A stretch of DNA of 64,000 bases from Siphonodentalium dalli (lineage: Eukaryota > Mollusca > Scaphopoda > Gadilida > Siphonodentaliidae), in assembly GCA_032622095.1 (NCBI GenBank), contig CP136062.1, positions 152,142,875 to 152,206,874 of the forward strand, written 5' to 3'. A program made the position numbers and the translations under genes. Shown here one piece after another: positions 1-14,845 of this stretch; positions within the stretch are counted from its first letter, which is position 1, and each line of letters starts with the position of its first letter. Under the pieces are notes generated by a model. The model ran no database searches. It saw nothing but the letters and a program-made list of their open reading frames with translations, and was not told where the DNA came from.

Positions 1-519
1 ACCAGTGATCAAACTTTCTCTAGAAGTTAATCCAGCATTAGCACCACCTTTGGTGCTCTCTTCAAATTGTTCTGCTGTATCGCCATACCACATTTCTAAA
101 TTTGCTAATTGATTATCTTTATATTCTTGAGAGTATCCCAACAGATTTTCGAAATATGCTCGGTATGGGTAAGTGTCAGAATTCGAAGTTATCAATTTGT
201 TGTTCAAGTAAACATCGATACTGCTGAACATGCTATGAAAGAAATTGTTAACAGGTGCTAATTCCGTAGCAGCTACCAAATTAGTTCCATCTTTTTTTGT
301 AATTTTGAATTTCACATAAAGATAAGATTGATTAATATCTGTCCACTTTTCGGTTTGAGATGGTATGACAAACTCTATCGGAGCAGAATTATTCAGCGGT
401 GCAATAGGATGATTTTCGATCCACTGCGATTCTGACATTGTAGCCACCGTTGGTGGAACATGTGTTATATCAAGTTCCGATTTATTGCATTCGCATGATC
501 CATTTACCATTTGTGCCAT
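1..519 (-). CDS. Capsid protein of Polinton/adintovirus type, N-terminal part (runs off window)
   Basis: The reading frame opens with ATG at 517-519 and runs 173 codons without a stop to the window edge. The N-terminus has a CEC pair (residues 9-11). Around residues 95-115 it reads FFHSMFSSIDVYLNNK, then DTYPYRAYFENLLGYS. This is the signature of the 'F54H12.2-like' proteins common in invertebrate genomes, which belong to Polinton/adintovirus elements and which I take to be the double jelly-roll major capsid (hexon-like) protein. It lies 2 bp downstream of the 124-residue basic gene, as in a compact late operon-like block. The visible part carries no break. Family membership is well supported; the exact capsid role is from memory of the family, and a different virion role cannot be excluded because the C-terminal part is not in the window. 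Confidence 0.75.
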   Translation of the reverse strand, partial: MAQMVNGSCECNKSELDITHVPPTVATMSESQWIENHPIAPLNNSAPIEFVIPSQTEKWTDINQSYLYVKFKITKKDGTNLVAATELAPVNNFFHSMFSSIDVYLNNKLITSNSDTYPYRAYFENLLGYSQEYKDNQLANLEMWYGDTAEQFEESTKGGANAGLTSRESLITG

Positions 520-521
520 GA

Positions 522-896
522 TTAATCAAAAATATCAAGAGCTCGACTGCTAGGATGATTTTTCGACTGACTTTTTCGGCGTTTGACAGCTGAATGATTC
601 ATTTTTGAAGTCGCTACTCTTTTTCTAGGTTTTTTTCTCGAGTTCAAAATTTGATTTTTAGCTTGTGTGCCAAAAGATTTTAAAGCTTTTTTACCTTCAG
701 ACATCAACGCTTCTTTCGGACTTTTACCTTGATTAATAATTTCATCTGCAACACCAAAAGTGTGTTTTTTCGCAAGTTGTAAAGCTGTCCGACCAAGCGG
801 TTTTAGAAATGGTATAGCAGATCTCATAACTGATTTGAAAATTGAACCAATACCATTACCATATTGCCGTGGTACGCCTCTATACACGGGGAACAT
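522..896 (-). CDS. Small basic virion-type protein (adenovirus pX/pVI-like), 124 aa
   Basis: ATG at 894-896, stop just before the capsid gene. Residues 14-36 (GNGIGSIFKSVMRSAIPFLK) form an amphipathic, Gly-rich, membrane-active-looking helix. The C-terminal half is strongly basic, with KKPRKR and KRRK patches that could be nuclear-localisation or DNA-condensing segments. Proteins of this layout sit beside the capsid genes in many Polinton/adintovirus elements and are compared with adenovirus minor core or membrane-lytic proteins. Tight packing between the minor capsid gene (6 bp away) and the capsid gene (2 bp away) supports a structural role. The function is inference from position and composition; no catalytic motif is present. 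Confidence 0.65.
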   Translation of the reverse strand: MFPVYRGVPRQYGNGIGSIFKSVMRSAIPFLKPLGRTALQLAKKHTFGVADEIINQGKSPKEALMSEGKKALKSFGTQAKNQILNSRKKPRKRVATSKMNHSAVKRRKSQSKNHPSSRALDIFD

Positions 897-901
897 TGTT
901 T

Positions 902-1735
902 TTAGAACTCCTCTCGTTTTCTGAAATGTAGCTTCACCAAAGACTTACCACCGATAAACTGAATTGATTTTCCTGTGTCGCCACTTATATTTACACTAAT
1001 TTTGTCAAAGTATGACTTTGAAACTGGAACATAATGTAAATTTAAAAATTCATGTTTTACATGTAATCCGTCGATATCTCTTTTACTTCTGAAAGAAACA
1101 ACTCGTAAAATTTGTACTTCAACATTTCCAACAAATGTGTAATCGGCAATATCAGAATAAACAAACATTAGATTATGACCAACATTCAAATCTACACCAA
1201 ACGGAAATCTATTATTTGAATAAAAATCTTCAGAAGCGTTTTCAGTTTTGTAACCCAACTTGTGCAAAAGACATTGTGGTAATTCAATTCCTAGTTTTGT
1301 GTTACTTAAACTCTTGCGAATAATTTTCACACGTTTTGTACCTTTTGAGTACCCGATGTGAAATCCGTATTCGTTTTGCATTGCTTCTCCAAGTGTTTTA
1401 TCAATTACATCTTGCATTGTATCAACTAAATCTGTCGCAGAGGTATACGAACCATTTTGTATCTGTATTTCAAGTGCATGAACGCCATCAGGTCTCCTAA
1501 ATATCTTTTCTTCAAAAGTAATATTGCATCAGTTGTAATCAAATTGAATTTACACGAATCCCCTGTAACATTGTATGTTTCTGAAGGTGTTATCAGTTCG
1601 GCTAATGCAACTTCCCATTTTTTCTTTATCAATTTGAACTGGTTTTGGTAATTGTACAGTAAAACAACATTGAGTATTGTTTGGATACATTACCATCGAA
1701 CTGTCGCTCGGAATTGTAATGTAGAAAGGATTCAT
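902..1735 (-). pseudogene. Minor capsid/penton-like protein, broken by two frameshifts
   Basis: Three pieces in different frames make up one gene. 1735 down to about 1620 starts MNPFYITIPSDSSMVMYP. About 1625-1430 contains KWEVALAEL. About 1470-902 ends in RVVSFRSKR, LNLHYVPVSKSYFD and VKLHFRKR. This motif order (FYITIPS... WEVALAE... HYVPVS... LHFRR) is that of the single jelly-roll minor capsid protein of Polintons, usually about 270-300 residues. The first shift lies in a run of six A (minus strand, about 1618-1623) and looks like one extra base. The second lies near 1445-1470, where the middle frame reaches TAG while the third frame stays open. The start codon overlaps the upstream 87-aa gene's stop as ATGA. 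Mutation is more likely than programmed shifting because there are two independent breaks. Confidence 0.7.
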
Positions 1736-1995
1736 ACTTTCAAAATTTCTGCCGACTGATTTTTCAAATATTTCAAACGCGGTGTTGGTAAAATGTACCC
1801 CAAAGAACTACTGAGTAAAATTAACCACAGTTCGTTATTTTCACTTTGTAAACTTAAATGAACAATTGCTGTAGCGATTATACCAACAATTATAATAATT
1901 TGTGTAAAATATGTTACTTGATTTTTTGCAATTTTTTCTCCACAGATTTGAAATTGTGATGGAGCATCGAGACCAACTGAACCATTTTGAGACAT
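1732..1995 (-). CDS. Small two-helix membrane protein of the Polinton, 87 aa
   Basis: I chose the ATG at 1993-1995 (MSQNGSVGLDAPSQF) rather than an upstream one inside the integrase. This leaves a 10-bp gap after the integrase stop and gives the product usually seen in these elements. Two hydrophobic stretches are clear: residues 31-48 (TQIIIIVGIIATAIVHL) and 57-70, which ends in the conserved-looking LLSSSLGYILPTPRLK. Similar short proteins ending LLSS-LGYLLP-P are common between integrase and minor capsid genes of metazoan Polintons. The role is unknown; a virion inner-membrane or membrane-remodelling protein is plausible. The stop (TGA, 1732-1734) overlaps the next gene's ATG by 2 bp. The frame is intact. 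Confidence 0.65.
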   Translation of the reverse strand: MSQNGSVGLDAPSQFQICGEKIAKNQVTYFTQIIIIVGIIATAIVHLSLQSENNELWLILLSSSLGYILPTPRLKYLKNQSAEILKV

Positions 1996-2005
1996 GTTAA
2001 AAGTT

Positions 2006-3100
2006 TTATACCAAATTTGTGGCAGGTATCCAACTGTCAAATTTTTTAGGATAACCAGCCCAATGAACTTTAATTTCTCTAACTGATTTACCAGCAACTT
2101 TTCTTGAACGTTTACCAACAACTGATTCAATTTCGTAAACTTTATTATCTTTTATATGTTGAATTTCTTTACCATAAAATGATCCTGCGATGTTTTCACC
2201 ATCTAAATCTACTAATTTGTAAGTTAATGGTGTACTTTTACAAACTCTACTAATTTTGAAAATTTCTTTTGTCCAATTTGGAAGATATCCTTTATCAAAA
2301 GTTCTTTTTGTTTTATTTATTCTAACAAAATCTCCAACTTTCAACATCTTATCTTTTTTCGTTTTTAACTTTCCATAAAGATTTCTGGAAACTTCAATTT
2401 CATTTTCTCGAGTTACTAAAACTGGTGCCATCTTAATACTTCTATGAAAACTTTTGTTGTAAGAATTCACAAAATCGTGCAAAACATCAACGTATTTCAA
2501 AGTTTGATTATGTGTAAAATATTTCCACATCTTTGTTTTCAATGTCCGTTGTAAACGTTCAACTATACTTGCTTTTGTCTCTGGATTCTCTGTTGTGAAA
2601 AAATGAATTTTCTTAGATTTCAAAAATTGTAAAAATAATTTATTTTAGAATTCTGAACCTTTGTCAGATTGAAATGAAGCTGGTTTTCGTTTTGATGATT
2701 TTAGAATTTTCTGAAATGTTTTAACTAAAGTTTTACCAGTTTTATCTTTAATTTTTTCAACCCATGCAAATTTTGAGAACACATCAATAACACAAAGTAA
2801 ATATCTGTAATTGTCATTGTGCTTTTGCAAAGTTTGCAAATCTGCCAGATCAGCTTGCCACTGAATATCAATTCCTGCAACAATAGTTTTACGTCTGCGA
2901 AATTTCCGAACAATTGGTTTGTGCAAAGTATATGTTTTTTGCCATTGTAACCATTTTTTAACATCTGAAAGTTTAATTTTGTTATTTGTTTCTTTTGCAT
3001 TTTTAAAAAGTTGATTTGCTCCACTGAAACCACCAACTTCTTTTGGATTGTAGTAAATTTCAGTTAGAAGTTTGTCAAATTTTATGTAAGTGAGGACCAT
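2006..3100 (-). pseudogene. Retroviral-type (Polinton) integrase with chromodomain, one in-frame stop
   Basis: DDE integrase that would join the element to host DNA. From the ATG at 3098-3100, the catalytic core shows WQADLADLQ (Asp84), FQSDKGSEF (Asp146) and KASIVER (Glu181). The last two are separated by 34 residues, typical of Polinton c-integrases. The C-terminus (about residues 318-364) ends in a chromodomain-like block with YEIESVV, IKVHWAGYP and FDSWIPA. A single TAA at codon 152 (2645-2647) falls between the second Asp and the Glu. The frame is otherwise open on both sides, so this one change separates the catalytic residues. The 5' end overlaps the preceding 235-aa gene by 19 bp. It is probably inactive unless the stop is read through or is a sequencing error. 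Confidence 0.9.
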
Positions 3101-3789
3101 CCTTTCAAAATAGTTTTTCTGGTTTCTGGTGTTAAAATATCAACTGAACGTTTTCTTGACTTGCCACTGATAGGAGTTGCATGAGGTGTATGAAACTCAT
3201 CACCAGTGTGACCTTTTAAATGTCTTTGCATCCACAGCCATCGATCCCTGTTACCTACATAATCTTGTGGTATATTAAGTTCCCCCAATCCACGTAGGAA
3301 TGTTTCATAACCAACTGGGTTAAAACCTTTTCGGTGACGAACAACATCGTTTATCAAATCAATTATATTTGATCCAGTAACTGTTTCTGTTCCATAAATT
3401 AATTGTCCACGATCATCCCATCTAAGTTTAGGATTAGTTGACAACAATGATAAAATTTGTTGTGCTTTACCACGAAATTTAGATGGCACACTTTCCAATA
3501 TATGGTCACTCATTTTCCCAAAGTTTTCAGATAACTTTTGTTCAGGTAATCTGAATTTTGAATTTAAAGATTTTTGTGAAGTTTTCAATTTGTACAAATT
3601 TTCTCCAAATAACTGTGACTTTTCTGATTCAGAAATATTTTTATCATAAACTGATTTCAATTCTTTGTAAGAATCTGAAACATTTGAAATTGCAGGATCA
3701 GGAGGTAATTGAGGTTTATTCATTTCTGACATTTCCCATTGTTTGAAATCTTCCAACATTCTGAATGGTACAATAACCATTTTCTTCAT
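3082..3789 (-). CDS. Conserved Polinton protein of unknown function, 235 aa
   Basis: An intact frame from ATG 3787-3789. After an N-terminal VPFRMLEDFK and a charged middle, residues 118-170 read PSKFRGKAQQILSLL, then NPKLRWDDRGQLIYG, then a DLINDVVRHRKGFNP-type segment. This block, with WDDRG and RRKGFNP-like motifs, recurs in invertebrate Polinton elements next to the integrase, but I know no assigned activity. There is no transmembrane segment, signal peptide or nucleotide-binding motif. The C-terminus is basic (SGKSRKRS). It overlaps the integrase start by 19 bp, which suggests co-expression. A virion-assembly role is only a guess from position. Confidence 0.6.
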   Translation of the reverse strand: MKKMVIVPFRMLEDFKQWEMSEMNKPQLPPDPAISNVSDSYKELKSVYDKNISESEKSQLFGENLYKLKTSQKSLNSKFRLPEQKLSENFGKMSDHILESVPSKFRGKAQQILSLLSTNPKLRWDDRGQLIYGTETVTGSNIIDLINDVVRHRKGFNPVGYETFLRGLGELNIPQDYVGNRDRWLWMQRHLKGHTGDEFHTPHATPISGKSRKRSVDILTPETRKTILKGWSSLT

Positions 3790-3809
3790 ATTTATTTGAG
3801 ATTTAGTTT

Positions 3810-4178
3810 TTACAAAATATTTTTAACAACTGCACCTAATGTTTTGCTAATCAATGGAGCAAGAAATAATAATGGTAAAAAGCCACCTTTTTGATTCAAA
3901 ATTTTCTTCTTTTGTTGCAAAGGTTTGTTCTTGTCTGCAAGATATCTGATATGTTTACGCTTCGAATGTAACTTGCGGTTCTGAGCTTCATTCAGTTTTA
4001 CATTACCTTTTAAAAGATTTTGACAACATTCTGAAATGCAATCCATCACTTGTTTCGGAGCATCGTTGATCATTTTCTTTTTATATGCAGATGGAACTTT
4101 ACTCATTGCAACAATCAACTCACCATATTTTTTTATCAGCGGTGCTTTCCGGCTCTTAGTTTTTGAAGGCATCTTCAC
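3810..4178 (-). CDS. Basic protein with Gly-Gly hydrophobic tail, 122 aa
   Basis: Lys/Arg-rich throughout, with MPSKTKSRK at the N-terminus, KRKHIRY and QKKKILN. At residues 98-122 it switches to a hydrophobic tail that begins with a Gly-Gly pair (NQKGGFLPLLFLAPLIS). This architecture (basic body, then GG and a membrane-active segment) resembles pVI-like minor virion proteins of adenovirus-related viruses, where a viral protease cuts at a Gly-Gly site. The P4 residue expected by the adenoviral site (Met, Ile or Leu) is not present, so cleavage is uncertain. The neighbouring 195-aa protein has the same arrangement (QRGGSGFLGG), suggesting related roles. No database family is claimed. Confidence 0.5.
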   Translation of the reverse strand: MKMPSKTKSRKAPLIKKYGELIVAMSKVPSAYKKKMINDAPKQVMDCISECCQNLLKGNVKLNEAQNRKLHSKRKHIRYLADKNKPLQQKKKILNQKGGFLPLLFLAPLISKTLGAVVKNIL

Positions 4179-4228
4179 AGTCTAAGTAGTTGTCTCAAAA
4201 TGAGCAGAAAAATTATATGTTTCATCTT

Positions 4229-4816
4229 TTATCTTTTCGGATTGAACCATTCTAAAGCTTCGAATGCAGATTTCGATGCATCAGACAACGGCATAAATTT
4301 TGAAAATTCAAGATCAATAACTGGTTTTTTTTGTAACGGTTGATGTTGAGGGTTCTGCTGAGAAGGTATAGGTGTAAATTTAGAATGTTGATTTTGTTGA
4401 GTTTGCATCGGTGTAAACTTTGAATGATTTAGAGAAAGCTTTGTTTTACGTTTAGATTCTTTTTGATTACCTCTTTGTTGTGTTTGCTTCCGAGTAATCT
4501 TTGAACGTTTTGGAGAAACCTTTGATTTACTTTTAGATTGTCTACCAGTTTGTTCAAATGAATTTTTCAAAAGACTTCTAATTAAAACTCCTCCAAGAAA
4601 CCCACTACCACCTCGTTGTAAAATTAATTTGCGTTTTGTTTCCATATCAGTTGATCGATCAGAGATTTTTTTAAGAACATTTTTATTTCTCTGAAAAAAC
4701 TTTTTTGTCTGTGATGGTAATTTCCAATCATTTTCAAGAAATAATTCAGCTGCAAAAGTGAAGAAATTTATAATTTGTGACAGTTCATCACGACTAAACA
4801 TCTCGGTGGACGACAT
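4229..4816 (-). CDS. Basic, Gln-rich protein with internal Gly-Gly patch, 195 aa
   Basis: I used ATG 4814-4816 (MSSTEMFSRDELSQ). An upstream in-frame ATG exists but overlaps the ATPase gene and adds an unlikely leader. Residues 1-60 look helical. Around residue 68-85 comes LILQRGGSGFLGGVLIRS, a Gly-Gly hydrophobic patch like that of the next gene. The rest is a low-complexity basic/Gln-rich tail in which SKFTPMQTQQ-like phrases repeat twice. It sits 34 bp after the ATPase and 50 bp before the 122-aa protein. A role as minor virion or DNA-associated protein is inferred from composition only. Confidence 0.5.
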   Translation of the reverse strand: MSSTEMFSRDELSQIINFFTFAAELFLENDWKLPSQTKKFFQRNKNVLKKISDRSTDMETKRKLILQRGGSGFLGGVLIRSLLKNSFEQTGRQSKSKSKVSPKRSKITRKQTQQRGNQKESKRKTKLSLNHSKFTPMQTQQNQHSKFTPIPSQQNPQHQPLQKKPVIDLEFSKFMPLSDASKSAFEALEWFNPKR

Positions 4817-4850
4817 GGTTCTAAAATGAAAAAAATAACAACAACTGAAT

Positions 4851-5501
4851 TTATACTTTTGAATATATGACAGGACCTCGGTCATTAGCTGTCAACCATT
4901 TATGGAAAATATCAGTTCTAATTCGCAAATAATTTTCTGTTCTAGGATGAAAATCTACTAAAATATATCCATGATTTATTGAAGTTGCATCTTCGTATGC
5001 TTGTTTCAAATGATTGGTTTGCATTTGATGAGCCAAAACTTTTATTTGATTTTTATCTCGAACGCTTTGAAATAAAACCATGTAGTGTGCATTCAAACTT
5101 ATAGTTCTGCTACTTTTTGATTTTTGGAACATGTTTTGAGTAATGTAAATTATTGAAGCATTTCGATGGTGTCCTTTTCTAGTAAACCAAAGCATTATTT
5201 TGTCTTCATCTTGTTCCCCCATCATGTCATCGAAAACAACAAGATGAGGAAATGATTTATCTGATACAATTTCCTCATCATCGTCTGGAATACCATCGAT
5301 AAACTCAACGTTATCAATTTCTTTTATACGATTGTATGTGTCTTGCCATTCTTTGTAACACCAAACTATTTTCTTTGGTGGTGTTTGGAATAAATCGTGT
5401 TTAAATTCAATAACTTTTTTAACAAATTCTGTTTTACCTGATCCACTAGGTCCGCTGATAAAGAAATTACACGGATGTTGGAAAAGTAAAGATTCTTCCA
5501 T
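4851..5501 (-). CDS. Genome-packaging ATPase (A32/FtsK-HerA type), 216 aa
   Basis: P-loop ATPase that would pump viral DNA into capsids. Walker A is GPSGSGKT at residues 17-24; Walker B is HLVVFDD with Asp91 and Asp92; a sensor-like IIYITQN follows at 117-123. Length and motif spacing fit the small A32-type packaging ATPases of Polintons and large DNA viruses. The start is the ATG at 5499-5501, and the open frame is undamaged. Upstream, only 34 bp separate the start codon from a MITE, so its original promoter region may have been displaced. Together with the capsid genes it shows that this is a virus-like element and not a simple transposon. Confidence 0.88.
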   Translation of the reverse strand: MEESLLFQHPCNFFISGPSGSGKTEFVKKVIEFKHDLFQTPPKKIVWCYKEWQDTYNRIKEIDNVEFIDGIPDDDEEIVSDKSFPHLVVFDDMMGEQDEDKIMLWFTRKGHHRNASIIYITQNMFQKSKSSRTISLNAHYMVLFQSVRDKNQIKVLAHQMQTNHLKQAYEDATSINHGYILVDFHPRTENYLRIRTDIFHKWLTANDRGPVIYSKV

Positions 5502-5534
5502 GTTGTCACTTTGATGTCTAATCAGAGAGTGAAC

Positions 5535-6036
5535 TTAAAGGCACGTGAGGCCTTAGTTGTCGAAAATATTCATATTTGTTCCAATCACCGTAAACAGAAA
5601 AACATTAAAACGCATACAGTTTCGTTCATATATACCATGACCATCGCGTAAACAGCATGTTATCATAAAGATTTACTATATTTTACCTAAGCAAGAGCAA
5701 GATTGTGTTACAGAAGACAGCACAGTGCTGCTGGCTAATCACACACAAATGGCATAAACGCTCCTTATTCGTTCCATATCAGGAATTCACCAACAAAGAA
5801 CGCTCTTTATTTTTAACATCATAATATAAACAAACACCAGAAAAGTAACTTTTTATGCCTTTGTTTACATAACAATGGTCAAAGATATGACAATAACATA
5901 CTGTTTATGCGATATTTCTTATTTGTATACGGACAAAGTCTGTCTACAGTTTGTTGTTCTTTCTGTTTGTGGCGTTATTTGACCGGTGGAAATATTTTCA
6001 CAGGATACCCACCGCCAAGGCCAACCGTGTCTTTAA
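5535..6036. mobile_element. TTAA-flanked MITE inserted in the viral element
   Basis: The segment starts TTAAAGGCACG and its other end, read inward, starts TTAAAGACACGG. This gives imperfect terminal inverted repeats and a TTAA at each edge, as expected for piggyBac-type target duplication. A diverged copy of the same sequence lies at about 14850-15291 in the same orientation (shared TTTGTTTACATAACA and TGACAATAACATACTG phrases). No coding capacity is seen. The right edge coincides with the stop codon of the 234-codon ORF. Family assignment to piggyBac is inference from the TTAA alone. Confidence 0.65.
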
Positions 6037-6737
6037 CGACGTGTGAATTTAGTTCTTAAAGAGAAATCTCCAAAGCTGTAAACATTTCCATACATTTCAA
6101 TAATCCAATTATCATAGTCTTCTATTCTTCTGTACTTTGTTCTGTAAATAAAAAAATCATCCCCCAAAATGTTTTGAATTTTTGCATATGTTGACATTGT
6201 TTTTGTTAACAAATACCCATAGATCTTAGGATCTGATTCAAAAGTTCCCCCAGCAAGAGGAAAATGATCTTCATACTTTGTATAATGAATATAGTCATGT
6301 TCATCAAAAGTTCCTAAATCTATATCTAAATGGTGTTGATCACCACCAAATGTCCAAAAATCAGATATTTTTTCAATGAGAAAAAATGTTTTGAATTTAA
6401 TAAATGATTCAATATATTTTTGAGAGAAATGAGAAGATATACTTGACTCAAGATAGGCCAATCTCTGTAAACATTCGCCGACATCACAGCATCGTAGTAT
6501 TGCTTTCTTTTCTCTTTCAAACCAGACTTCTTGTAATTCCTTCTTTATCTCTGGAATAAGCGTTGACTGTGCCACCAAATATCCATAAATCTTCTCAGCA
6601 ATTTCTGGAGGTACTACTCCTGCCAACATCTTGACATGAAATGACTCAACATCTCCATCCGTATGGGTATGTATGAATACCATTGACGAGTTTTCGTTTT
6701 GTGTACACCGATCTGAAAGTTTTGGTTTGACACTCAC
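6033..6737 (-). CDS. Polinton ORF of unknown function, possibly truncated by the MITE
   Basis: An open frame downstream of the polymerase. The longest version starts at 6737 inside the polymerase 3' end (out of frame). A better start is ATG 6681-6683 (MVFIHTHTDGD), leaving a 38-bp overlap. It encodes charged and aromatic-rich segments such as VPPEIAEKIYGYLVAQ and FFIYRTKYRRIEDYDNW, with no recognised motif. The TAA stop (6033-6035) is made of the terminal TTAA of the adjacent MITE, so the natural C-terminus is probably missing. Alternatively the MITE landed just at the end. I do not recognise the family. Confidence 0.5.
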   Translation of the reverse strand: MSVKPKLSDRCTQNENSSMVFIHTHTDGDVESFHVKMLAGVVPPEIAEKIYGYLVAQSTLIPEIKKELQEVWFEREKKAILRCCDVGECLQRLAYLESSISSHFSQKYIESFIKFKTFFLIEKISDFWTFGGDQHHLDIDLGTFDEHDYIHYTKYEDHFPLAGGTFESDPKIYGYLLTKTMSTYAKIQNILGDDFFIYRTKYRRIEDYDNWIIEMYGNVYSFGDFSLRTKFTRR

Positions 6738-9700
6738 TAATCAATTGATGGTTCTTTTGTCTTTTAATTCTGGAAGGATACTCAACAACAGTTTTGAAAT
6801 TTTCACGATCATTAACACATTGTACCATTGTTTCAAAATTAACTTTTTGACTTGTGCTGTAATCAAGAGTGATACCTTTTACCTTACATTTGGTGTATCT
6901 TCTCCCATCTTTGATGTATTCATATCCGTAGTTCTTTGGCCCAAGTCCAACAAATTTGACAATCTTTGCATCTGGATGTTCGTCGCTCCATTTCCCCAAT
7001 CTTCCTTCGATAGTTTTGATGTTCTTCTTTGATGGATCACTGACATACATACAGCTGTCTGTATCAAAATACAGCACTCTATCTCCAAGTTTTTCTAAAA
7101 CTTTATACAATTGTAATCTTGCATACGCTGTAACAAAAGAAGCAACAACAACATTTGCTGAATGATGAGGTTCAATATTATCTAAGATGTCAACATAATT
7201 TACCAGAATGAATTTGTCACCATCAAGAAGTGTAACATTTTGAACAATTATATTGTTACTAGTAAGCAATTCAAAATAACGTGATGGTTTATCCACATAC
7301 TCTGTTTTTGACATAAGATTTCTTTGTGCATTCTTACCCCATATACAATTAATCATAATTTTAGATATTTGACGTTTTCCTGGATTCTTCTCGATGTTCT
7401 CCAAATTTATACCCTCAGCTGCATAATAATCCTGTACAAACTTTTGTTTCTGTTCTTCTGTCTCAACACCAAATGGATAACCACTACATTCCTGTTTGAT
7501 CTTTAGATGTTTATCGATATAGGATTTGTATATTTCATCTGTCCAATCTGTCCAATGCCAAATTTGGTACACATCAAGTATTTTGTAGCCAACATCCATT
7601 GCTTTGAATAATTCTGGCGTGGTCCACACTCCGGTTATAGCTCGATCTTCTTCTGAATGGTTACATGTCTCGTCCTCATTGATGGCACAAGTGTTACACA
7701 AAGTAAAAACCATTTTCTTGTTACAATGAATCGGTAGAACTGGAATATACAATTTCGATGGTGGTAAAATTGTACATTTAATAAGTCCCGCATAGTCTCT
7801 AATGTGTTCTTGATCGATCTGCTCTTGGCTCAAAATTTCTGGATGTCCAACAGGGTAGAATTTATATTTGTTGCAATATGGATACAACGAACACACATCG
7901 ATAAACTTGATTTCTTTTGTGGAATCTTGATCAATTTCCTCGTACAATTTGATGGCATTTGTACGTCCACCAAACAACGCTTCTCTTGGCAAAATAGGGT
8001 CTCGATGTTTGTAGAAAGATTCCATTTGTTGTTTGAATTTCACATCCGATTTCATTCTTTCGTCGATCTGATGCTCCCAAATTGATTCAACTCTGTAACC
8101 AAGACTTTCCAGTTCATCTTTCTTCTGTTGAGTTCTTGTATATAATTCTTCCATGGTGAGCATCGTATAAGGATTCTTGTAATGTCTGGTGTTGTAACAT
8201 TTTGGACATCCATGAAACAGACATCCATTCATCTCAAAAACTGTTCTTGTGGCTTCCTCATATCCATCGACGTAGTGTCCACCAATCTTGATTTCTCCTC
8301 CATTCAAAGCATGTTTGATTGTTATCAAACGTGACAATGATAGGTGTTGAAGCCAACGTATCGCTTTCATGGAATAGTTTTTAGCACATGGATATCCACC
8401 ATCTGGAATGATTCCAATTATTTTTTCTGGCATTGAATTCTTCCTCCATGCCAAATTGCAAACTTGTGCCAATGTTATTGACTCAATGAACGGGTCAATC
8501 TGTTCTGTTTCCAATATGTATTTCCTGAATTTTCCACATCCACGGCGAAGAATATCCACGTCTGATTTGCAGTACTTCTCTATCTCTTCTTGGAAGTTGA
8601 ATATCGCATAATTTTCTATTTTCTCATTGTACCATTCAAAGAATTTCTCTCGATTTTCCACGCTCATCATATCTGGTTTGTAGTAATCACAAGCCAAGTA
8701 AGGTCCAATGTAATTTTGAAACTTTGGTGAATTCGCCCAATGTGGAAAGTGTCCTTTTGCCATCTCATTCAGCTGAAAAGTTTGTGGAAATTTTGAAAGC
8801 GGCATCATCAGAAAACTCAGAGAATCAATAACTTTCACGCTGTTGCATTTTAAACTGAGAATTTTGTTTCCATTCATGATCAGTTCTGGTTTATGAATTC
8901 CACTTTGTATGAGTGCTTGAAGTAGAAACTGTGCATCGTATCCCTGAGCATTATGTGCTATTGCAACACATCCTTTGTGATCTTGATGGAATAACCAGTT
9001 TGTGAAGTCTGTTAAAACGTTGTCACCCTTGAATACAAATTCTCTGGAATCCGGTCCGCATGTTTCACATTTTTCTTCGATTGGTTTGCACATGCAATCT
9101 CCACAAGCGGTATGTGCAACACAGAAGTTTGGAATATGAACACCTGTGTCTTGTCTGCATTCAAAGTCAAAGAATACATATGGAATCTTTGCAGGTTTCT
9201 TTTCCGGTGATTCATATTTTGGAATGTAGCACCTGTGATCTGCTTCAACGATTTCTTTGCAATGTTTTCATTTCTTCAACCCCGCACATATATGTCTGTT
9301 TGATTTATTGATGAGAAATTCTTCATCACAAATGTTGCATAGTTGAACCAAATCACATATTTTTCTTTTCTGTTTTCCTTCCGTCTTCAAATGGTTGTCG
9401 AAACAAGATTTACTTCTGAATGATCGTCGACACGTTCTACACTTCACCAAATTTGTGAAATTACACTGTGTCAATGACCAGCATGCACAAACAAATCTGC
9501 ATCGATGATCGCCACGACTTTTGAATCCAATGTCACAGAATTCGCAGTAGTAGCTGGTGCCTAGAAATCCTTTGATTGATGTTATGGTGTCGAAGTGATT
9601 GTTGTTGTAGTAGATGTGTACACATTTGCTCTCCGAACACATTTCTGCAGGTTCAAATAGAAATCCAGCGCCAGCAAATTCATTGTGAATTTTCACAACA

Positions 9701-10719
9701 TATTCTGGATACAATATTTCTTGAATCTTGTGGAACTCATTGATACTGCAAACTGTATCGTGTGGAATACCAGCACGGTTGAGTAGATTTTTTGCTGCAT
9801 CTGTTTGTGCTGTGTATATTGATTGTCTTATTCTTTTCCATTTCTTTGACCAGCACGCAGATCCATCACTATCTGCCTTACACATTCCGACGACAATAGA
9901 TCTTGCCATACACATAACATCATCAGCATTTTCAATCCGGACAATACTTCTTTTCACTTTTGTAAGCTTGTTCTTGTCTGCAAATGGTCCATAATGTAGT
10001 GAGTGTCGTGTACCACCTTCCGGAATATCTGTAACGAAGATTTCGAAATTGAGTGCACTGTCATGAATTGTAAAGTCTGCATTTGATTGAACCACATTTT
10101 GAATATTATCCATGAGTGTCTCACCATTCAATTCACTGGCTTTTGTGAATGGAATGAAAATGTTCATATCAAGTCCTGGATGATTTATCGTAACTCTGAT
10201 TCTTGTCTTCTCATTTGCTGAACATTTCTGTTTCAATTCTTCTGTCAACTTCTCAAATATCTCTGGAATGTTTTCGATTGGATCTGTAAATTTCTCGAAT
10301 TTCACACCAAATTGTCGTGATGCTGATTTAAATTTTCTGGAAAATTTCTCCGAGTTCAGCTCCAATTTGAAATATTTTGTTGGATTGAACACAACACGCT
10401 CTCTAGCCAGACTTCTCTTTCTCTTCCCACCAATTTCTCTATTCTGTCTTCGACCGCGTCCAATCTGACCATCACTAGAACTTTCTTCACTTTCGCCTCC
10501 ATCAGTTTCCATATCGCTCTCTTCACTTTCTGCCTCATCAGTTTCCATATCGCTCTCTTCACTTTCTGCCTCATCAGTTTCCATATCGCTCTCTTCACTT
10601 TCTGCCTCATCAGTTTCCATTTCGCTCTCTTCAATAACTGCAGGCCTTGGTCTTTTTCTAACAATATCTTCTTCGCTGGCGGAGTCGTCTGAAACAGGTC
10701 TTTTGATTCTCTTAAACAT
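6646..10719 (-). pseudogene. Protein-primed family-B DNA polymerase (Polinton PolB), one in-frame stop
   Basis: Replicative polymerase of the element, 1,358 codons in one frame. Residues 33-80 are four 12-residue acidic repeats (ESDMETDEAE). Residues 392-478 hold three Cys/His zinc-binding clusters. The exonuclease motifs are FFDFEC (Asp518, Glu520), AHNAQGYD (Asp595) and YCKSDVD (Asp720). Polymerase motif A is DVCSLYPYC (Asp941), motif B has KIMINCIWGK (Lys1120), and motif C is YFDTDS (Asp1219, Asp1221). A GCLFHGCPKC Cys cluster lies near residue 835. A single TGA at codon 484 (9268-9270) falls between the zinc region and the exonuclease domain. All later catalytic residues are intact and the frame stays open. 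It is therefore probably a recent nonsense mutation; CGA to TGA by CpG decay is one possible route. Confidence 0.9.
10496..10632 (-). repeat. 36-bp in-frame repeat coding acidic stretch of PolB
   Basis: Nearly four copies of a 36-bp unit encode the 12-residue repeat with core DMETDEAE. The copies are almost identical, which points to recent expansion. The array begins exactly where the sequence shared with the divergent CCHC gene ends (codon 32). Confidence 0.85.
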
Positions 10720-10810
10720 TTTTGTCTTGAGTTTTTGTCAGCAAAAAATATTGCGACTGGCTTCTTCGGAGTTGAAGTGTAAAGTGTATAATTACACAAT
10801 TTTACACTTG

Positions 10811-10818
10811 CTTTTATA
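10811..10818 (-). promoter_or_regulatory. TATA box of the polymerase gene
   Basis: Reads TATAAAAG on the minus strand, about 92 bp before the polymerase ATG at 10717-10719. It mirrors the TATA box of the divergent gene within the palindrome. An imperfect smaller palindrome (AAGTGTAAAG ... TTTACACTT, 10777-10809) lies just downstream and could be an operator; that role is speculation. Confidence 0.6.
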
Positions 10819-10838
10819 GCATTTTTCATCGTGACTGC

Positions 10839-10846
10839 TATAAAAG
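10839..10846 (+). promoter_or_regulatory. TATA box of the CCHC gene
   Basis: TATAAAAG, 92 bp upstream of the ATG at 10939 and only 20 bp from the oppositely oriented TATA box. The two start sites lie back to back inside one palindrome, so both genes should respond to the same factors. Confidence 0.6.
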
Positions 10847-10938
10847 CAGGTGTTAAAATTGTGTAATTATACACTTTACACTTCAACTCCGAAGAAGCCA
10901 GTCGCAATATTTTTTGCTGACAAAAACTCAAGACAAAA

Positions 10939-11514
10939 ATGTTTAAGAGAATCAAAAGACCTGTTTCAGACGACTCCGCCAGCGAAGAAGATATTGTTAG
11001 AAAAAGACCAAGGCCTGCAGTTATTGAAGAGAGCTATATTGAGCTGCATAAAGAAGAATCTACACTACTACAGACTAGAAAAATTCAAGATAATCTTGTC
11101 GAATTGAGACAGATCTCTACTGATTTGTTTAAATTTTGTAACAAAATGCAATGGCAAGAGAAAAAAGAGAAAAACAAAGCTGATAAAAATTGGAAACCAC
11201 CATATGGTTACTGTTACAAATGCGGACAAGACTCCCATTGGTCCTTCCAATGTAAAACAGATTTCGACAACAAAAAAAATGTGAAAACTATACAAAAAAG
11301 TCTACAAGCAGTAACAATACAAGAACAAAATGCAGTTATCAAAACTGAAGAGATGTCTACAACATCAGATGTTTTCAAACAACCCCGACCTGTTGATCCT
11401 ACGAATGATTCACAGAACAAATCTGAAGATAAGCATCCAGATTTTGAAAATTCCAAGAAAACTTCCAAGAAAAAGAAGCTGAGACAATTCTACATTCCAA
11501 AAACAGATAAATGA
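10939..11514 (+). CDS. CCHC zinc-knuckle protein sharing its N-terminus with PolB, 191 aa
   Basis: Residues 1-32 are identical to the polymerase N-terminus because the sequence lies in the inverted repeat. Residues 34-70 are rich in charged and Leu residues and could form a coiled coil. Residues 92-105 form a classical zinc knuckle, C-x2-C-x4-H-x4-C (CYKCGQDSHWSFQC), of the kind that binds single-stranded nucleic acid. The C-terminus is basic (KKTSKKKKLRQF). The function is not known. A nucleic-acid-binding replication or packaging accessory is plausible, and the shared basic N-terminus may target both proteins to the same place (for example the nucleus). An AATAAA follows 31 bp after the stop. 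Confidence 0.75.
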   Translation: MFKRIKRPVSDDSASEEDIVRKRPRPAVIEESYIELHKEESTLLQTRKIQDNLVELRQISTDLFKFCNKMQWQEKKEKNKADKNWKPPYGYCYKCGQDSHWSFQCKTDFDNKKNVKTIQKSLQAVTIQEQNAVIKTEEMSTTSDVFKQPRPVDPTNDSQNKSEDKHPDFENSKKTSKKKKLRQFYIPKTDK

Positions 11515-11551: not shown

Positions 11552-11625
11552 TTATGAATTGAACAATCGTGTTTTGTTTTGTTTTTTTCAGCTATGAAAG
11601 AGTAACCTTTTAGGGGAATGTGGGT

Positions 11626-11641
11626 GGCCCTGAAAAGGGCC
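11626..11641 (-). terminator. Histone-type mRNA 3' stem-loop (gene of 121 aa)
   Basis: On the minus strand it reads GGCCCTTTTCAGGGCC followed by ACCCACA, a full match to the metazoan histone mRNA stem-loop (GGCYCTTTTCAGRGCC then ACCCA). It starts 18 nt after the stop of the 121-aa gene. The asymmetric TTTC loop fixes the strand: it serves the minus gene, not the plus-strand CCHC gene that converges on it. Confidence 0.9.
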
Positions 11642-11659
11642 GTTTTTCTTTTCCAGAAT

Positions 11660-12025
11660 TCATAAAAATTCTGCCAAATCAGGATATATCCCATTGGGAT
11701 TAATTGTCACAGACCAAGTAGGATTTGATCTGTGCGCCGTAGCAGCCTGAGCGAAGCTGTCAATTGCTGCATTGCACAGATCTTTCTTCGAGATCTGTGA
11801 CAAGATCTCCACGAGATCAAGATTGCTTGATTCTTGATTCTTGATTGCTTGATCGCATACTTCAGGCGATGGTCGTCGCCGAGCCAGAAAATCTCTTAGC
11901 ATCTGTTTCTGTACCACCTTTTGTTCAGGAGAATCCTGCCATTTCCTATAGGTTCTGATTTTCGTCTCCTCTGACGAATCTCTCTTCCTCCATAACTTCT
12001 TGATAAATTTCTTTAACGACGGCAT
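11660..12025 (-). CDS. Small accessory protein with histone-type 3' end, 121 aa
   Basis: Start ATG 12023-12025, stop TGA 11660-11662. The N-terminal third is highly basic (MPSLKKFIKKLWRKR). The middle is helical and charged (KVVQKQMLRDFLARRR), and the C-terminus is acidic and hydrophobic. I see no known domain, signal peptide or LxCxE motif. It has a short leader (TATAAAAA 33 nt before the ATG), a shared upstream core with TGACG elements, and a histone stem-loop 18 nt after the stop. Regulation together with the two plus-strand genes to its right is strongly suggested. It is probably nuclear, judging by charge; the function is unknown. Confidence 0.65.
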   Translation of the reverse strand: MPSLKKFIKKLWRKRDSSEETKIRTYRKWQDSPEQKVVQKQMLRDFLARRRPSPEVCDQAIKNQESSNLDLVEILSQISKKDLCNAAIDSFAQAATAHRSNPTWSVTINPNGIYPDLAEFL

Positions 12026-12057
12026 AATGAATGAAGTTCACTGAAAAAGTGAAAATA

Positions 12058-12065
12058 TTTTTATA
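12058..12065 (-). promoter_or_regulatory. TATA box of the 121-aa gene
   Basis: TATAAAAA on the minus strand, 33 nt upstream of the start codon, implying a very short leader of the kind usual in histone-like genes. Confidence 0.5.
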
Positions 12066-12100
12066 CATTTGACACGGGCGTCAATGAAATCACATGTCGC

Positions 12101-12137
12101 ATTGACGTTAAAATTGACAAATGTTTCCTGACGTTGT
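12101..12137 (-). promoter_or_regulatory. Shared promoter core, copy 1 (minus)
   Basis: On the minus strand it contains, in order, ACAACGTCAGG, CATTTGTCA and TTTTAACGTCAA. These also stand in the same order upstream of both plus-strand genes (12522-12557, 13327-13362). The ACGTCA half sites resemble CRE/ATF-type elements. It lies 75-110 bp before the ATG. Confidence 0.7.
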
Positions 12138-12245
12138 GTTTTTTCAGAACCGGATCAACATGCATATTTTTCTTGATCATTATTGCATAGCGATCAAACA
12201 AATGTTTTTAATTTCGTTAGATCATTATCTATTATTTGGTACACA

Positions 12246-12646
12246 TGATTGATATATTTATTACCTCGTTAGGCAAATATGGAATGTTTTTCTAGTTTTT
12301 GGTTTTGGAAATGTACATATTTTATACATAAAACTGAACACAAGAAAACATACTGAACATTTTTCTTCATCATTACAATTGATAACTTTACTTGGTCATC
12401 GTTTATGAACGAAGATGAATTCATATGTTAAAATATCTTAATTAATTGCATATACTATCATGAATTTAATCTATATCATATCGAAATGGTGAAACTAACA
12501 GATAATGCACTGAAAAGAAACACAACGTCAGGGAGCATTTGTCATTTTTAACGTCAAAGTATTATGTGCTTTCTCTACCGCCCGCGCAATCGTGATATAT
12601 GTTCAAACACGGCCGTGAACAATTTTTATTCTGCATTCAAAGATGT
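12246..12646 (+). repeat. 400-bp promoter duplication, copy 1
   Basis: This block and 13051-13447 are about 95% identical direct repeats that run up to and include the start codons of the 62-aa and 155-aa genes (both ...CATTCAAAGATG). The coding sequences after the ATG are unrelated. A promoter was duplicated and now drives two different products. Confidence 0.92.
12522..12557 (+). promoter_or_regulatory. Shared promoter core, copy 2
   Basis: ACAACGTCAGG, CATTTGTCA and TTTTAACGTCAA in the same order as in the other two copies. A TATA-like GATATATG follows at about 12593-12600, 43 bp before the ATG of the 62-aa gene. Confidence 0.7.
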
Positions 12647-12831
12647 CTGAAATCCCCGAACCGTTGATGTCTATACTAAGAGGAACGATAGGGCTATCAC
12701 CCCAGATAATGCGGGCCGGACACGCAAAAGAAGTAACCGCCAGTGCAAAACTGGTTATGCAAATATGCAAAAAACAACAGCGTTGGAACAAAAGCAAAAG
12801 TCTCAAAAGAAAATCGTGGCGTGAACTTTGA
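12643..12831 (+). CDS. Small accessory protein with two histone-type stem-loops, 62 aa
   Basis: The ATG is placed exactly where the duplicated promoter block ends, matching the start of the 155-aa gene. The product begins MSEIPEPLMSILRG and ends in a strongly basic tail (KSKSLKRKSWREL). It has no recognisable domain and could be an intact micro-gene or the remnant of a larger one. Support for coding comes from context: promoter core upstream, and two histone-type stem-loops 13 and 41 nt after the stop. The function is unknown. Confidence 0.55.
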   Translation: MSEIPEPLMSILRGTIGLSPQIMRAGHAKEVTASAKLVMQICKKQQRWNKSKSLKRKSWREL

Positions 12832-12844
12832 TGCCATACAAAAC

Positions 12845-12860
12845 GGCCCTTTTCAGGGCC
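12845..12860 (+). terminator. Histone-type 3' stem-loop, first of two
   Basis: GGCCCTTTTCAGGGCC, a perfect 6-bp stem with a TTTC loop, 13 nt after the 62-aa gene's stop, preceded by AAAAC as in histone mRNAs. The 3' flank is AAAAAC rather than ACCCA. Confidence 0.85.
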
Positions 12861-12872
12861 AAAAACAAAAAC

Positions 12873-12888
12873 GGTCCTTTTCAGGACC
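12873..12888 (+). terminator. Histone-type 3' stem-loop, second of two (compensated stem)
   Basis: GGTCCTTTTCAGGACC. It differs from the first copy at two positions that pair with each other (C to T and G to A), so the stem is kept. It is followed by AACCA and, 13 nt on, by a purine-rich block (12902-12912). Confidence 0.85.
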
Positions 12889-12901
12889 AACCAATTTTTT
12901 C

Positions 12902-12912
12902 AAAAAGAAAAA
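12902..12912 (+). promoter_or_regulatory. Candidate histone downstream element
   Basis: CAAAAAGAAAAAC begins 12-13 nt after the stem-loop. The same block (GAAAAGAAAAAC) stands 11 nt after the stem-loop at 13931-13946. Histone pre-mRNAs carry a purine-rich U7-binding element at this distance. Pairing with the host U7 RNA cannot be tested here. Confidence 0.5.
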
Positions 12913-13050
12913 CTTTTAGCATTGCTTAAGAACTAATAATGTTCTTTGTACCCTATGTTTTGTTTTGAAAAAATCATGCCACGAATAATTTAAAACAAAA
13001 TATACTTGCAAATATTTGTTGTTGAATAAAATATAAATTGAACAATCGTG

Positions 13051-13447
13051 TTGATTGATATATTTGTTACCTCGTTAGGAAAATATGGAATGTTTTTCTA
13101 GTTTTGTTTTTGGAGATGTACATATTTTATACATAAAACTGAACACAAGAAAACATACTGAACATTTTTCTTCATCATTACAATCGATAACTTTACTTGG
13201 TCATCGTTTATGAACGAAGATGAATTCATATGTTAAAACATCTTAATTAATTGCATATACTATCATGAATTTAATCTATAACATATCGAAATAGTGAAAA
13301 CTACAGATAATGCACTGTAAAGAAACACAACGTCAGGAAGCATTTGTCATTTTTAACGTCAAAGTATTATGTGCTTTCTCTACCGCCCGCACAATCGTAA
13401 TATATGTTCAAGACGGATCTTCAGACTTATTCTACATTCAAAGATGA
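13051..13447 (+). repeat. 400-bp promoter duplication, copy 2
   Basis: Direct repeat of 12246-12646, ending in the start codon of the 155-aa gene. Just before it (13025-13050) lies a copy of the poly(A)-region phrase found after the CCHC gene (AATTGAACAATCGTG), which suggests that several blocks have been shuffled here. Confidence 0.92.
13327..13362 (+). promoter_or_regulatory. Shared promoter core, copy 3
   Basis: Same ordered elements as copies 1 and 2 (ACAACGTCAGG, CATTTGTCA, TTTTAACGTCAA), followed by TATA-like AATATATG at about 13399-13406. Confidence 0.7.
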
Positions 13448-13911
13448 CTGCTGTAAACATAACAGATCTTGACGAGATAATGGTACAGGGGGTATACTGT
13501 AAAGCAGTGTGCGGCGGCGAAGAAATATCTCTGTTTTGGAGGGCACTCAGCGTTGCGGTTTACGGGACGACCGATGGATGGATGGTTCTGAGAGATGCGG
13601 CAGTTGACCTGTACTACGCAGAGAGTGACGAACTTGGTGCGTCGGCACAAGATTTACGGCGCACACCACTTTTGGCTGAATCAAGATTGATGGTTGAATT
13701 AGCGGCGACTGTTATACAGCGACCTATCGTCATGTTTGATGCTACCAAAGGCGGCTACAAATCAACACCAAGATTCAAGTCATCAATAACTCTAGTGTGG
13801 ATCCCACACGTTTGCCACGAGCATTATTGTGAATGCGAAATATGGATGAGGCGAGGAGACAAATCAATTGAAGTTTTGGCGAACAAAGAAGTTCAATGTG
13901 GCGGATTCTAA
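13444..13911 (+). CDS. OTU-like fold protein, catalytic Cys apparently absent, 155 aa
   Basis: The start is ATG 13444-13446 at the end of the promoter repeat (an upstream in-frame ATG at 13369 lies inside the repeat and is not used here). Residues 27-45 (ISLFWRALSVAVYG) resemble the first helix of OTU cysteine proteases (xCLFRALS-). ESRLMVELAATVIQRPIVMFD (78-98) resembles the OTU segment E(I/L)xxxAxxxxRPIxV. A His-Tyr pair in HEHYCECEI could match the catalytic His. Ser stands where the nucleophilic Cys is expected and the preceding Asp-Gly is missing, so it would be a non-catalytic relative if the assignment is right. The histone-type stem-loop starts 19 nt after the stop. The assignment is tentative. 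Confidence 0.5.
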   Translation: MTAVNITDLDEIMVQGVYCKAVCGGEEISLFWRALSVAVYGTTDGWMVLRDAAVDLYYAESDELGASAQDLRRTPLLAESRLMVELAATVIQRPIVMFDATKGGYKSTPRFKSSITLVWIPHVCHEHYCECEIWMRRGDKSIEVLANKEVQCGGF

Positions 13912-13930
13912 ACTATAACAAAAATAAAAC

Positions 13931-13946
13931 GGCCCTTTTCAGGGCC
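13931..13946 (+). terminator. Histone-type 3' stem-loop (gene of 155 aa)
   Basis: AAAAC then GGCCCTTTTCAGGGCC then ACCAAA, closely matching the metazoan histone 3' element. It starts 19 nt after the stop codon. The purine block GAAAAGAAAAAC (13958-13969) follows at the spacing of a histone downstream element. Confidence 0.9.
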
Positions 13947-14090
13947 ACCAAATATTCGAAAAGAAAAACTCTTGATTGCTAATTGATATTTTCCAAAGTG
14001 AGATTTTCCTTTTGAAAAAAATAATTCTAAGTCCATTTTCATTTTTTCCGATCAGAAATATCACATCAATGACAGGAATATCTATCCTCA

Positions 14091-14311
14091 GGGGGAACTA
14101 TGGCCCAGTACCCATCAGTGGGGGGCACTATAGCCCAGTACCCATCAGTGGGGGGCACTATAGCCCAGTACCCATCAGTGGGGGGCACTATAGCCCAGTA
14201 GTGGGCTATAGTGCCCCCCCCACTGATGGGTACTGGGCTATAGTGCCCCCCACTGATGGGTACTGGGCTATAGTGCCCCCCACTGATGGGTACTGGGCCA
14301 TAGTGCCCCCC
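14091..14311. repeat. Palindrome built of 30-bp minisatellite units
   Basis: About three and a half units (core CACTATAGCCCAGTACCC) on the left are followed by the same units in reverse orientation on the right, with the centre near 14200. The outermost unit on each side carries the same variant (GGCCC instead of AGCCC), so the arms arose by one inverted duplication of an existing array. Open frames through it are incidental. Confidence 0.9.
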
Positions 14312-14313
14312 AT

Positions 14314-14845
14314 TACTACTCACGTTCGATCGTCCGCGGCAAGAGAGATCTTCACTCGACTACGTGTTAGCAATCATATGTTAGCTATAGAAAAGGGTCG
14401 ACACACGCAACCGAAGACGCCATTAAAAGACAGAATTTGTCACATGTGTGATGAACTTAAAGTTGAAACAGAAAAACATTTATTATGGAATGCAATGCGT
14501 ACGCTGACTTTAGAAAAGACTTGTTTAATATTGCTCAAAATTATAGCATAGATTTCATAAACATGAGTGATGATGATATGTTCATCTTTATAATGAAAAA
14601 CAAGGACAAACAAATAATCAATTCCGTGTGAAACCTGGTCCGGTTATTCTTTCTAAAAAGACAGAATGTCAATATGGGGAAATAAACGTTGAAATAATAA
14701 TTTATAATACTATTGATTATTTATCGTAGATATGCCTATTACATGTATTTTATTTTAATGTGTAACTTTTCATGTATTAACTGTTATTTACAACTGCCTC
14801 CATTGGTGTATTGCAATAAATCATCTTATCTTATCTTATCTTATG
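14314..14845 (+). mobile_element. 3' fragment of a non-LTR retrotransposon
   Basis: A truncated frame contains RLRVSNHMLAIEKGR and, downstream, CHMC...EKHLLWN, the Cys/His block typical of the region after the reverse transcriptase in animal LINEs. It ends with a (TCTTA)n tail at about 14822-14843. The element is 5'-truncated and abuts the palindromic minisatellite. Confidence 0.6.

Follow-up and report, generated by a model that had tools for sequence, protein, structure and literature searches.

Histone-type 3′ stem-loops behind the accessory genes of a Polinton in the mollusc Siphonodentalium dalli: a candidate capture of the host histone mRNA 3′ end

Introduction

Histone mRNAs receive their ends by the action of SLBP and U7, without poly(A), and their level tracks DNA replication. 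To our knowledge, no animal mRNAs other than the replication-dependent histone mRNAs are firmly established to carry this stem-loop in place of poly(A). The H4 of bracoviruses is reportedly one example of a viral histone-fold gene. Adintoviruses, an OTU-like domain at the N terminus of PolB, and histone-like genes in adomaviruses are described in PMC11071296, a text which does not contain the term "stem-loop". Among the papers listed in searches of the open-access literature, no link of histone stem-loops, SLBP, or H4 to Polintons or adintoviruses was found; an earlier note on the DNA treated here likewise knew of no such description. Here, we analyze a 64-kb stretch of the genome of the scaphopod mollusc Siphonodentalium dalli (contig CP136062.1, positions 152,142,875 to 152,206,874; the window in the following), which carries a Polinton with histone-type 3′ stem-loops behind its small accessory genes. 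We consider it likely that the stem-loops function as histone-type mRNA 3′ ends, and that a host histone 3′ end was captured by the Polinton and spread through cassette duplication.

Stem-loops behind three accessory genes

A pattern search of the window for the histone-type 3′ stem-loop, tolerating up to two mismatches, maps four stem-loops—a number never reached in 100 shuffles of the window, which yield 0.02 matches on average. They sit just within the right end of the Polinton, in an accessory locus of the following parts:

11626..11641, minus strand: stem-loop of the 121-aa gene; the Rfam match (11601-11646) takes in the downstream element
11660..12025, minus strand: accessory gene for a 121-aa protein starting MPSLKKF; relatives were found neither in Pfam nor in database searches, a diverged homolog (B_MFSK) is present elsewhere in the genome
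12075..12144, minus strand: repeat preceding the 121-aa gene, in the opposite orientation to those before the 62-aa and OTU-like genes
12297..12596, plus strand: direct repeat of 300 nt; second copy at 13102-13401, identity 96%
12515..12584, plus strand: repeat upstream of the 62-aa gene; same unit as 12075..12144
12643..12831, plus strand: accessory gene, 62 aa (MSEIPEPLM...)
12845..12860, plus strand: first stem-loop of the 62-aa gene; under the Rfam gathering score
12873..12888, plus strand: second stem-loop of the 62-aa gene, in the compensated form GGTCC...GGACC (compensatory C-G to T-A); the Rfam match (12868-12914) includes the downstream element
13320..13389, plus strand: repeat upstream of the OTU-like gene; same unit as 12075..12144
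13444..13911, plus strand: accessory gene, 155 aa, OTU-like; without a cysteine at the position expected for catalysis
13931..13946, plus strand: stem-loop following the OTU-like gene, matched by Rfam at 13926-13972

All four stem-loops lie on the coding strand of the gene they follow, 18 nt past the stop of the 121-aa gene, 13 and 41 nt past that of the 62-aa gene, and 19 nt past that of the 155-aa gene. Coordinates and strands agree with the earlier note, which had placed four such elements 13 to 41 nt behind the stops of three small genes on the coding strand. The covariance model proposed there as a check, Rfam Histone3 (RF00032), brings three of the four to the gathering score of 34 or above (42.2, 41.8, and 37.1 bits), and Histone3 is the sole Rfam family that reaches its gathering score anywhere in the window. 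The remaining stem-loop (match 12840-12865) scores 22.2 bits, probably because the second stem-loop directly adjoins it and leaves no downstream element in between.

Our own pattern scan finds no further stem-loop in positions 1-11000 of the window or in the 9.9-kb locus to its left (L146). The pattern script applied to L003, L004, and L142 covers TTT and TTC loops only; it passed over the stem-loop of L142, a distant Polinton described below, which Rfam caught.

Occurrence in the host genome

The exact sequence GGCYCTTTTCAGRGCC is found 2,670 times (1,314 + 1,356) in the 2.23-Gb host genome and its backward control not once. This total mixes stem-loops of Polintons with those of host histones, since host histone arrays lie on contigs C5, C8, and C9 (among the 150 scored matches per search). 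A detailed reading was made of 63 distinct stem-loops on contig C1, among the first 100 places listed. In 57 of these 63, the 60 nt ahead of the stem-loop contain the stop of an open frame of 55 codons or more—compared with 657 of 4,000 random places in the same loci. The gap between stop and stem-loop measures 19 nt in 23 cases, 22 in 10, 20 in nine, 13 in five, and 18 and 25 in three each, with 2, 17, 27, and 28 nt occurring once each. The six stem-loops without such a frame are found in L118, L119, L135, L136, L138, and L140, with damaged named genes in L119, L135, L136, and L140.

Judged by 3′ flank and neighboring frames, Polinton cassettes hold 58 of the 63 stem-loops, a reverse-transcriptase array holds three (L114 and L121), and two fall in no element that we recognize (L118 and L138). 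Quartets of stem-loops were also considered as host histone clusters, an assignment that was rejected when reading the loci revealed Polinton cassettes. In 14 own-genome loci scanned with Histone3, 18 matches in 11 loci attain the gathering score, with none in L118, L121, and L135; the stem-loops of the reverse-transcriptase array and of L118 score below it.

The array of L114 and L121 (C1:64.26-64.34 Mb) is a tandem array of ~5.6 kb with an RVT_1 frame, and in L121 the same histone stem-loop follows a 203-aa frame at a distance of 25 nt. The stem-loops at L118:2038 and L138:1406 stand alone, with no recognized gene or element upstream, the latter reaching the Histone3 gathering score.

Host histone genes and a viral histone H4

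All 30 host histone loci fetched contain the identical 16 nt in one H3-type context, and the H3 frame was read in two of them (L151 and L173). The similarity extends past the stem-loop: compared with the 46 nt downstream of host H3, all 10 own-genome classes—nine from Polintons and one from the reverse-transcriptase array—beat single-letter shuffles, which equal the individual classes in 28, 13, 2, 2, 2, 2, 1, 1, 0, and 0 of 1000 cases. The resemblance to a second class of histone array is weaker, with 444 shuffles of 1000 equaling C_OTU, 145 A_121, 114 A_MDPL, 42 A_OTU, and 0-11 the other six. In most classes, AAAG begins 14-16 nt after the loop; exact AAAG is missing there in the C-type OTU gene and in L118.

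A histone gene itself is found within the family. L117:1353-1667 on the plus strand (C1:61128352-61128663) encodes an H4 of 104 residues in a Polinton accessory cassette, which is identical to the H4 of PDB entry 2hio_D at 93 of 103 positions and bears one inserted arginine in addition. The region upstream of this gene is 93% identical to window positions 12075-12633, and the stretches around it match the OTU-like gene and the start of PolB. H4 copies of 312 nt make up seven of 150 scored matches, all without stops, on C1, C3, C4, C5 (three copies), and C7. These are 88-100% identical, with the copies in histone arrays measuring at most 309 nt and being mostly ~90% identical; the Polinton surroundings are established for the C1 copy. 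From their length, all seven appear to carry the same insertion.

Conservation across diverged accessory genes

The host genome also holds a second lineage (lineage B), which shares 48% identity with the window element in the N-terminal part of PolB, 72% in the ATPase, and 65% in the C-terminal part of the integrase. The accessory proteins are far more diverged between lineages, at 25-33% identity, with each gene bearing the stem-loop. In a ten-sequence comparison, from which the E-values are taken, the 121-aa protein is 29% identical to MFSK (E 4e-8), and MDPL is 33% identical to MDPV over 51 residues (E 4e-5). For the OTU-like proteins, the values are 31% between A and B (E 6e-19), 27% between A and C (E 7e-5), and 25% between B and C (E 2e-5). 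Behind these diverged homologous genes, the stem-loop lies 13-22 nt past the stop.

Alignment of ten 3′ regions shows AAACGGCCCTTTTCAGGGCC constant save for one compensated pair—in the second loop of the 62-aa gene—and the remainder mostly variable, where the unchanged 16 nt are partly due to selection by the search, because the own-genome loci were located through the exact stem-loop pattern. The pattern did not, by contrast, select for the AAAC flank, for the downstream region, or for the presence of homologous genes ahead of the stem-loop. When gene ends in these loci are traced through protein similarity instead, 56 of 61 carry the exact 16 nt, four have one mismatch, and one has two. These 61 ends are what is left of 65 after removal of four matches to an internal repeat of MFSK, at least one being counted twice as L115 and L139 overlap, and every locus still has at least one exact copy.

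A distant Polinton and searches elsewhere

A search of genome contigs by PolB, made without using the stem-loop, returned four relatives (L142, L143, L144, and L145). L142 is an 8.9-kb contig filed under a metagenome-assembled genome of Bacteroidia, with a PolB of 36% identity, an integrase of 33-40%, a hexon-like protein of 31%, and a protease-like protein of 26%. It evidently represents a eukaryotic Polinton contaminating a bacterial assembly. A TATA-binding-protein-like gene (PF00352, E 1.2e-27) is also found on it, at L142:7189-7695 on the minus strand. Histone3 matches L142 with 35.8 bits, 28 nt past an 89-aa frame with a C2H2 zinc finger (PF00096, E 3.5e-11). Because the loop reads UAUC, this stem-loop is not a copy of the end found in the window family.

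In IMG/VR, the PolB query of the window is without matches, and alignments A1 and A4 give four weak loci and one, respectively. The stem-loop followed by ACC occurs in none of the IMG/VR contigs; the bare stem-loop is present in 101 stretches, 0/101 followed by ACC and 6/101 with AAAG downstream, which we judge to be phage background, either coding or terminator-like. IMG/VR accordingly neither supports nor refutes our reading of the stem-loops.

Architecture of the accessory cassettes

In full copies of the accessory locus (e.g., L123, L125, and L134), the order is stem-loop and 121-aa gene, 62-aa gene with two stem-loops, stem-loop and MDPLTEF gene, and OTU-like gene with stem-loop, so that the genes form two divergent pairs. 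The window copy lacks the stem-loop-ended MDPLTEF gene, elsewhere found between the 62-aa and 155-aa genes; the break lies at ~13052, at the start of a direct repeat. Lineage B bears an extra OTU-like stem-loop gene adjoining the integrase (L115:1242). The repeat unit found upstream of all three window genes (12075..12144, 12515..12584, and 13320..13389) is presumed to serve as a common viral promoter.

The genes of 121, 62, and 155 codons have no Pfam match at E 5, and protein look-ups gave no relatives for the OTU-like and 121-aa proteins, nor did a tblastn comparison of the OTU-like gene with phages. The tentative OTU assignment of the 155-aa protein comes from its structure model (pLDDT 64), whose ten best Foldseek matches are all OTU domains (best E 0.0097). 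In five aligned OTU-like copies, no cysteine precedes the invariant tryptophan (SLFW, QMLW, and IAVW), a stretch which we take to be the place of the OTU catalytic cysteine.

The surrounding Polinton

The remaining parts of the element are:

2006..3100, minus strand: integrase, rve with C-terminal chromodomain (PF00665, E 1.1e-8; PF00385, E 9.2e-6), in two neighboring frames, interrupted
4851..5501, minus strand: packaging-type ATPase (Pox_A32, PF04665, E 8.3e-9)
6646..9093, minus strand: C-terminal part of PolB (PF03175), the frame being broken between 9093 and 9268
9268..10719, minus strand: N-terminal part of PolB; weak zinc-finger matches only in Pfam
10939..11514, plus strand: gene with a weak zinc-knuckle match, without stem-loop
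14019..14325, strand not assigned: right terminal inverted repeat of minisatellite type; left partner at C2:152140486-152140791, beyond the window

PolB matches PF03175 with E 1.4e-38 and has 973 related proteins at E 0.001; among the best 120 of these are proteins of the bivalves Mercenaria (54% identity over 64% of the query) and Saccostrea (42-45%). Both PolB and integrase are interrupted in the window copy. An adenain-like protease falls just below the cut-off (PF00770, E 5e-4, 20.2 bits against 21.3). In L146, a 338-aa frame, the candidate for a double jelly-roll major capsid protein, is 31% identical to a frame of L142 and matches neither Pfam nor PHROG, "hexon-like" being our own label for it.

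The terminal repeats are built from a ~30-nt minisatellite as an inverted array, and L146:7087-7392 pairs with window 14019-14325 in inverted orientation at 98% identity. Since this inverted minisatellite repeat closes both sides, the element spans ~16.7 kb. A further inverted repeat of 189 nt (window 10616-11042) lets the N-terminal part of PolB and the divergent zinc-knuckle gene share their upstream region and first 32 residues.

Proposed mechanism and alternatives

A Polinton would have taken up a host histone 3′ end, probably along with a histone H4 gene, and this end would have multiplied over the accessory locus by duplication of a cassette in which an interchangeable reading frame stands between a common viral promoter and the stem-loop with its downstream element. 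Host SLBP and the U7 small nuclear ribonucleoprotein would cut past the stem-loop, giving a capped mRNA without poly(A), which is expected to be stable and translated mainly at high SLBP, a state of replicating cells. In this way, the viral H4 and the accessory proteins, which may manipulate the host, would be made during host and viral DNA replication, and selection would preserve the histone-type end. We infer the promoter role, the processing, the absence of poly(A), the coupling to S phase, the selection, and the capture route.

Several observations weigh against this picture. The own-genome loci were chosen by the exact stem-loop pattern, and damaged stem-loop variants exist. Histone stem-loops are present in the reverse-transcriptase repeat array, too (L114 and L121). 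Of the 30 stem-loops that we count in the 14 scanned loci of this genome, 18 reach the Histone3 gathering score, and in lineage B only ends of the MFSK-type and C-type OTU genes do so, though not all of them. Extending the Histone3 search to related elements, as the earlier note had envisaged, gave a match for one of the four contigs found by PolB, L142, and none at E 1 for the partial contigs L143-L145; L001, L002, and L181 have no match at E 1 either. The downstream region of L142 resembles neither host histone class, being equaled by 723 and 724 of 1000 shuffles. Transcription itself may not be driven by S phase, because the viral and host H3 promoters differ: the viral upstream repeat carries ACGTCA, whereas two host H3 promoters bear CCAAT boxes and no ACGTCA. 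Poly(A) signals (AATAAA or ATTAAA) lie within 300 nt past the stop in two of three stem-loop genes and in seven of nine others, and are not discriminating because they are common to both groups. A U7 small nuclear RNA was found neither in the host nor in the controls used for the same search.

One alternative is that the stem-loops are relics, which arrived with captured histone genes or by cassette duplication, have no present role, and leave it to downstream poly(A) signals to make the real ends. The H4 cassette in the family offers a source for such hitchhiking, AATAAA is found 194 nt past the stop of the 62-aa gene, and a search by exact pattern favors unchanged copies. We nevertheless regard it as unlikely: the stem-loop was retained while the proteins fell to 25-33% identity, the sole base pair to differ among ten aligned ends shows a compensatory change, the downstream element was likewise retained, and the distant Polinton L142—found without the pattern—has a stem-loop of its own whose loop is different.

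A different role would be recombination, with the short identical ends driving the exchange of accessory frames and SLBP being irrelevant. Frames are indeed shuffled, H4 sits behind the same promoter region, the genes have upstream repeats in common, and one gene is missing from the window copy, where the break coincides with the beginning of a repeat. Yet neither the choice of a histone stem-loop, its placement on the coding strand, and the AAAG ~14-16 nt downstream in most classes nor the stem-loop in the distant contig L142 is explained hereby, which makes this very improbable. That plentiful stem-loop RNAs act as a decoy, titrating SLBP or U7 and thus lowering the host histone supply during viral replication, might fit the numerous copies per genome and the tandem pair on the 62-aa gene, but is equally far-fetched given that the stem-loops lie mostly 13-28 nt past open coding frames, as in histone mRNAs, and that among the loci read no unit consists of a stem-loop only, except perhaps in L118 and L138, where we recognize no gene upstream.

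Working histone-type ends remain our preferred reading. The proposal of the earlier note that Polinton accessory genes use histone stem-loops stands at the level of sequence, through the covariance model, the 57 of 63 stem-loops behind open frames against 657 of 4,000 random places, the stem-loop in one of the four contigs found by PolB, the H3-like downstream region, and the viral H4. Whether a broad group of animal Polintons and adintoviruses makes its accessory genes as SLBP-dependent, nonpolyadenylated histone-type mRNAs—an old trait from histone-gene capture, still linked to viral H4 and turned on with host replication—is in our view an evenly balanced question.

Comparison with known systems

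If the proposed reading is true, integrated viruses with the stem-loop on unrelated genes would show the histone 3′-end pathway to be open to hijack, and would suggest how Polinton expression could be matched to S phase. Such genes would also be natural nonhistone substrates for SLBP studies, and RNA-seq on poly(A)-selected RNA would miss them.

The ends described here share with the metazoan histone mRNA 3′ end (RF00032) the 6-bp stem, the UUUC loop, the A-rich 5′ flank, and a mostly ACC-type 3′ flank, as well as a purine-rich downstream element ~14 nt on and a position mostly 13-28 nt past the stop; the same 16 nt are found in the host's own H3 loci. They differ in the frames they follow, which are those of viral accessory proteins save for one H4 cassette. 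With Polintons (Mavericks) and adintoviruses, the element has in common PolB, the integrase of rve and chromodomain, the Pox_A32-type ATPase, the terminal inverted repeats, and a size of ~16.7 kb, with the adenain-like protease just under the cut-off. Its histone-type 3′ ends and H4 gene set it apart, neither being reported for these groups among the open-access papers listed. The adomavirus "Histoid", as presented in PMC11071296, is similarly a histone-fold gene in an animal DNA virus. The H4 of the present family differs from it in being ~90% identical to canonical H4 and in bearing a stem-loop like those of its neighboring nonhistone genes.

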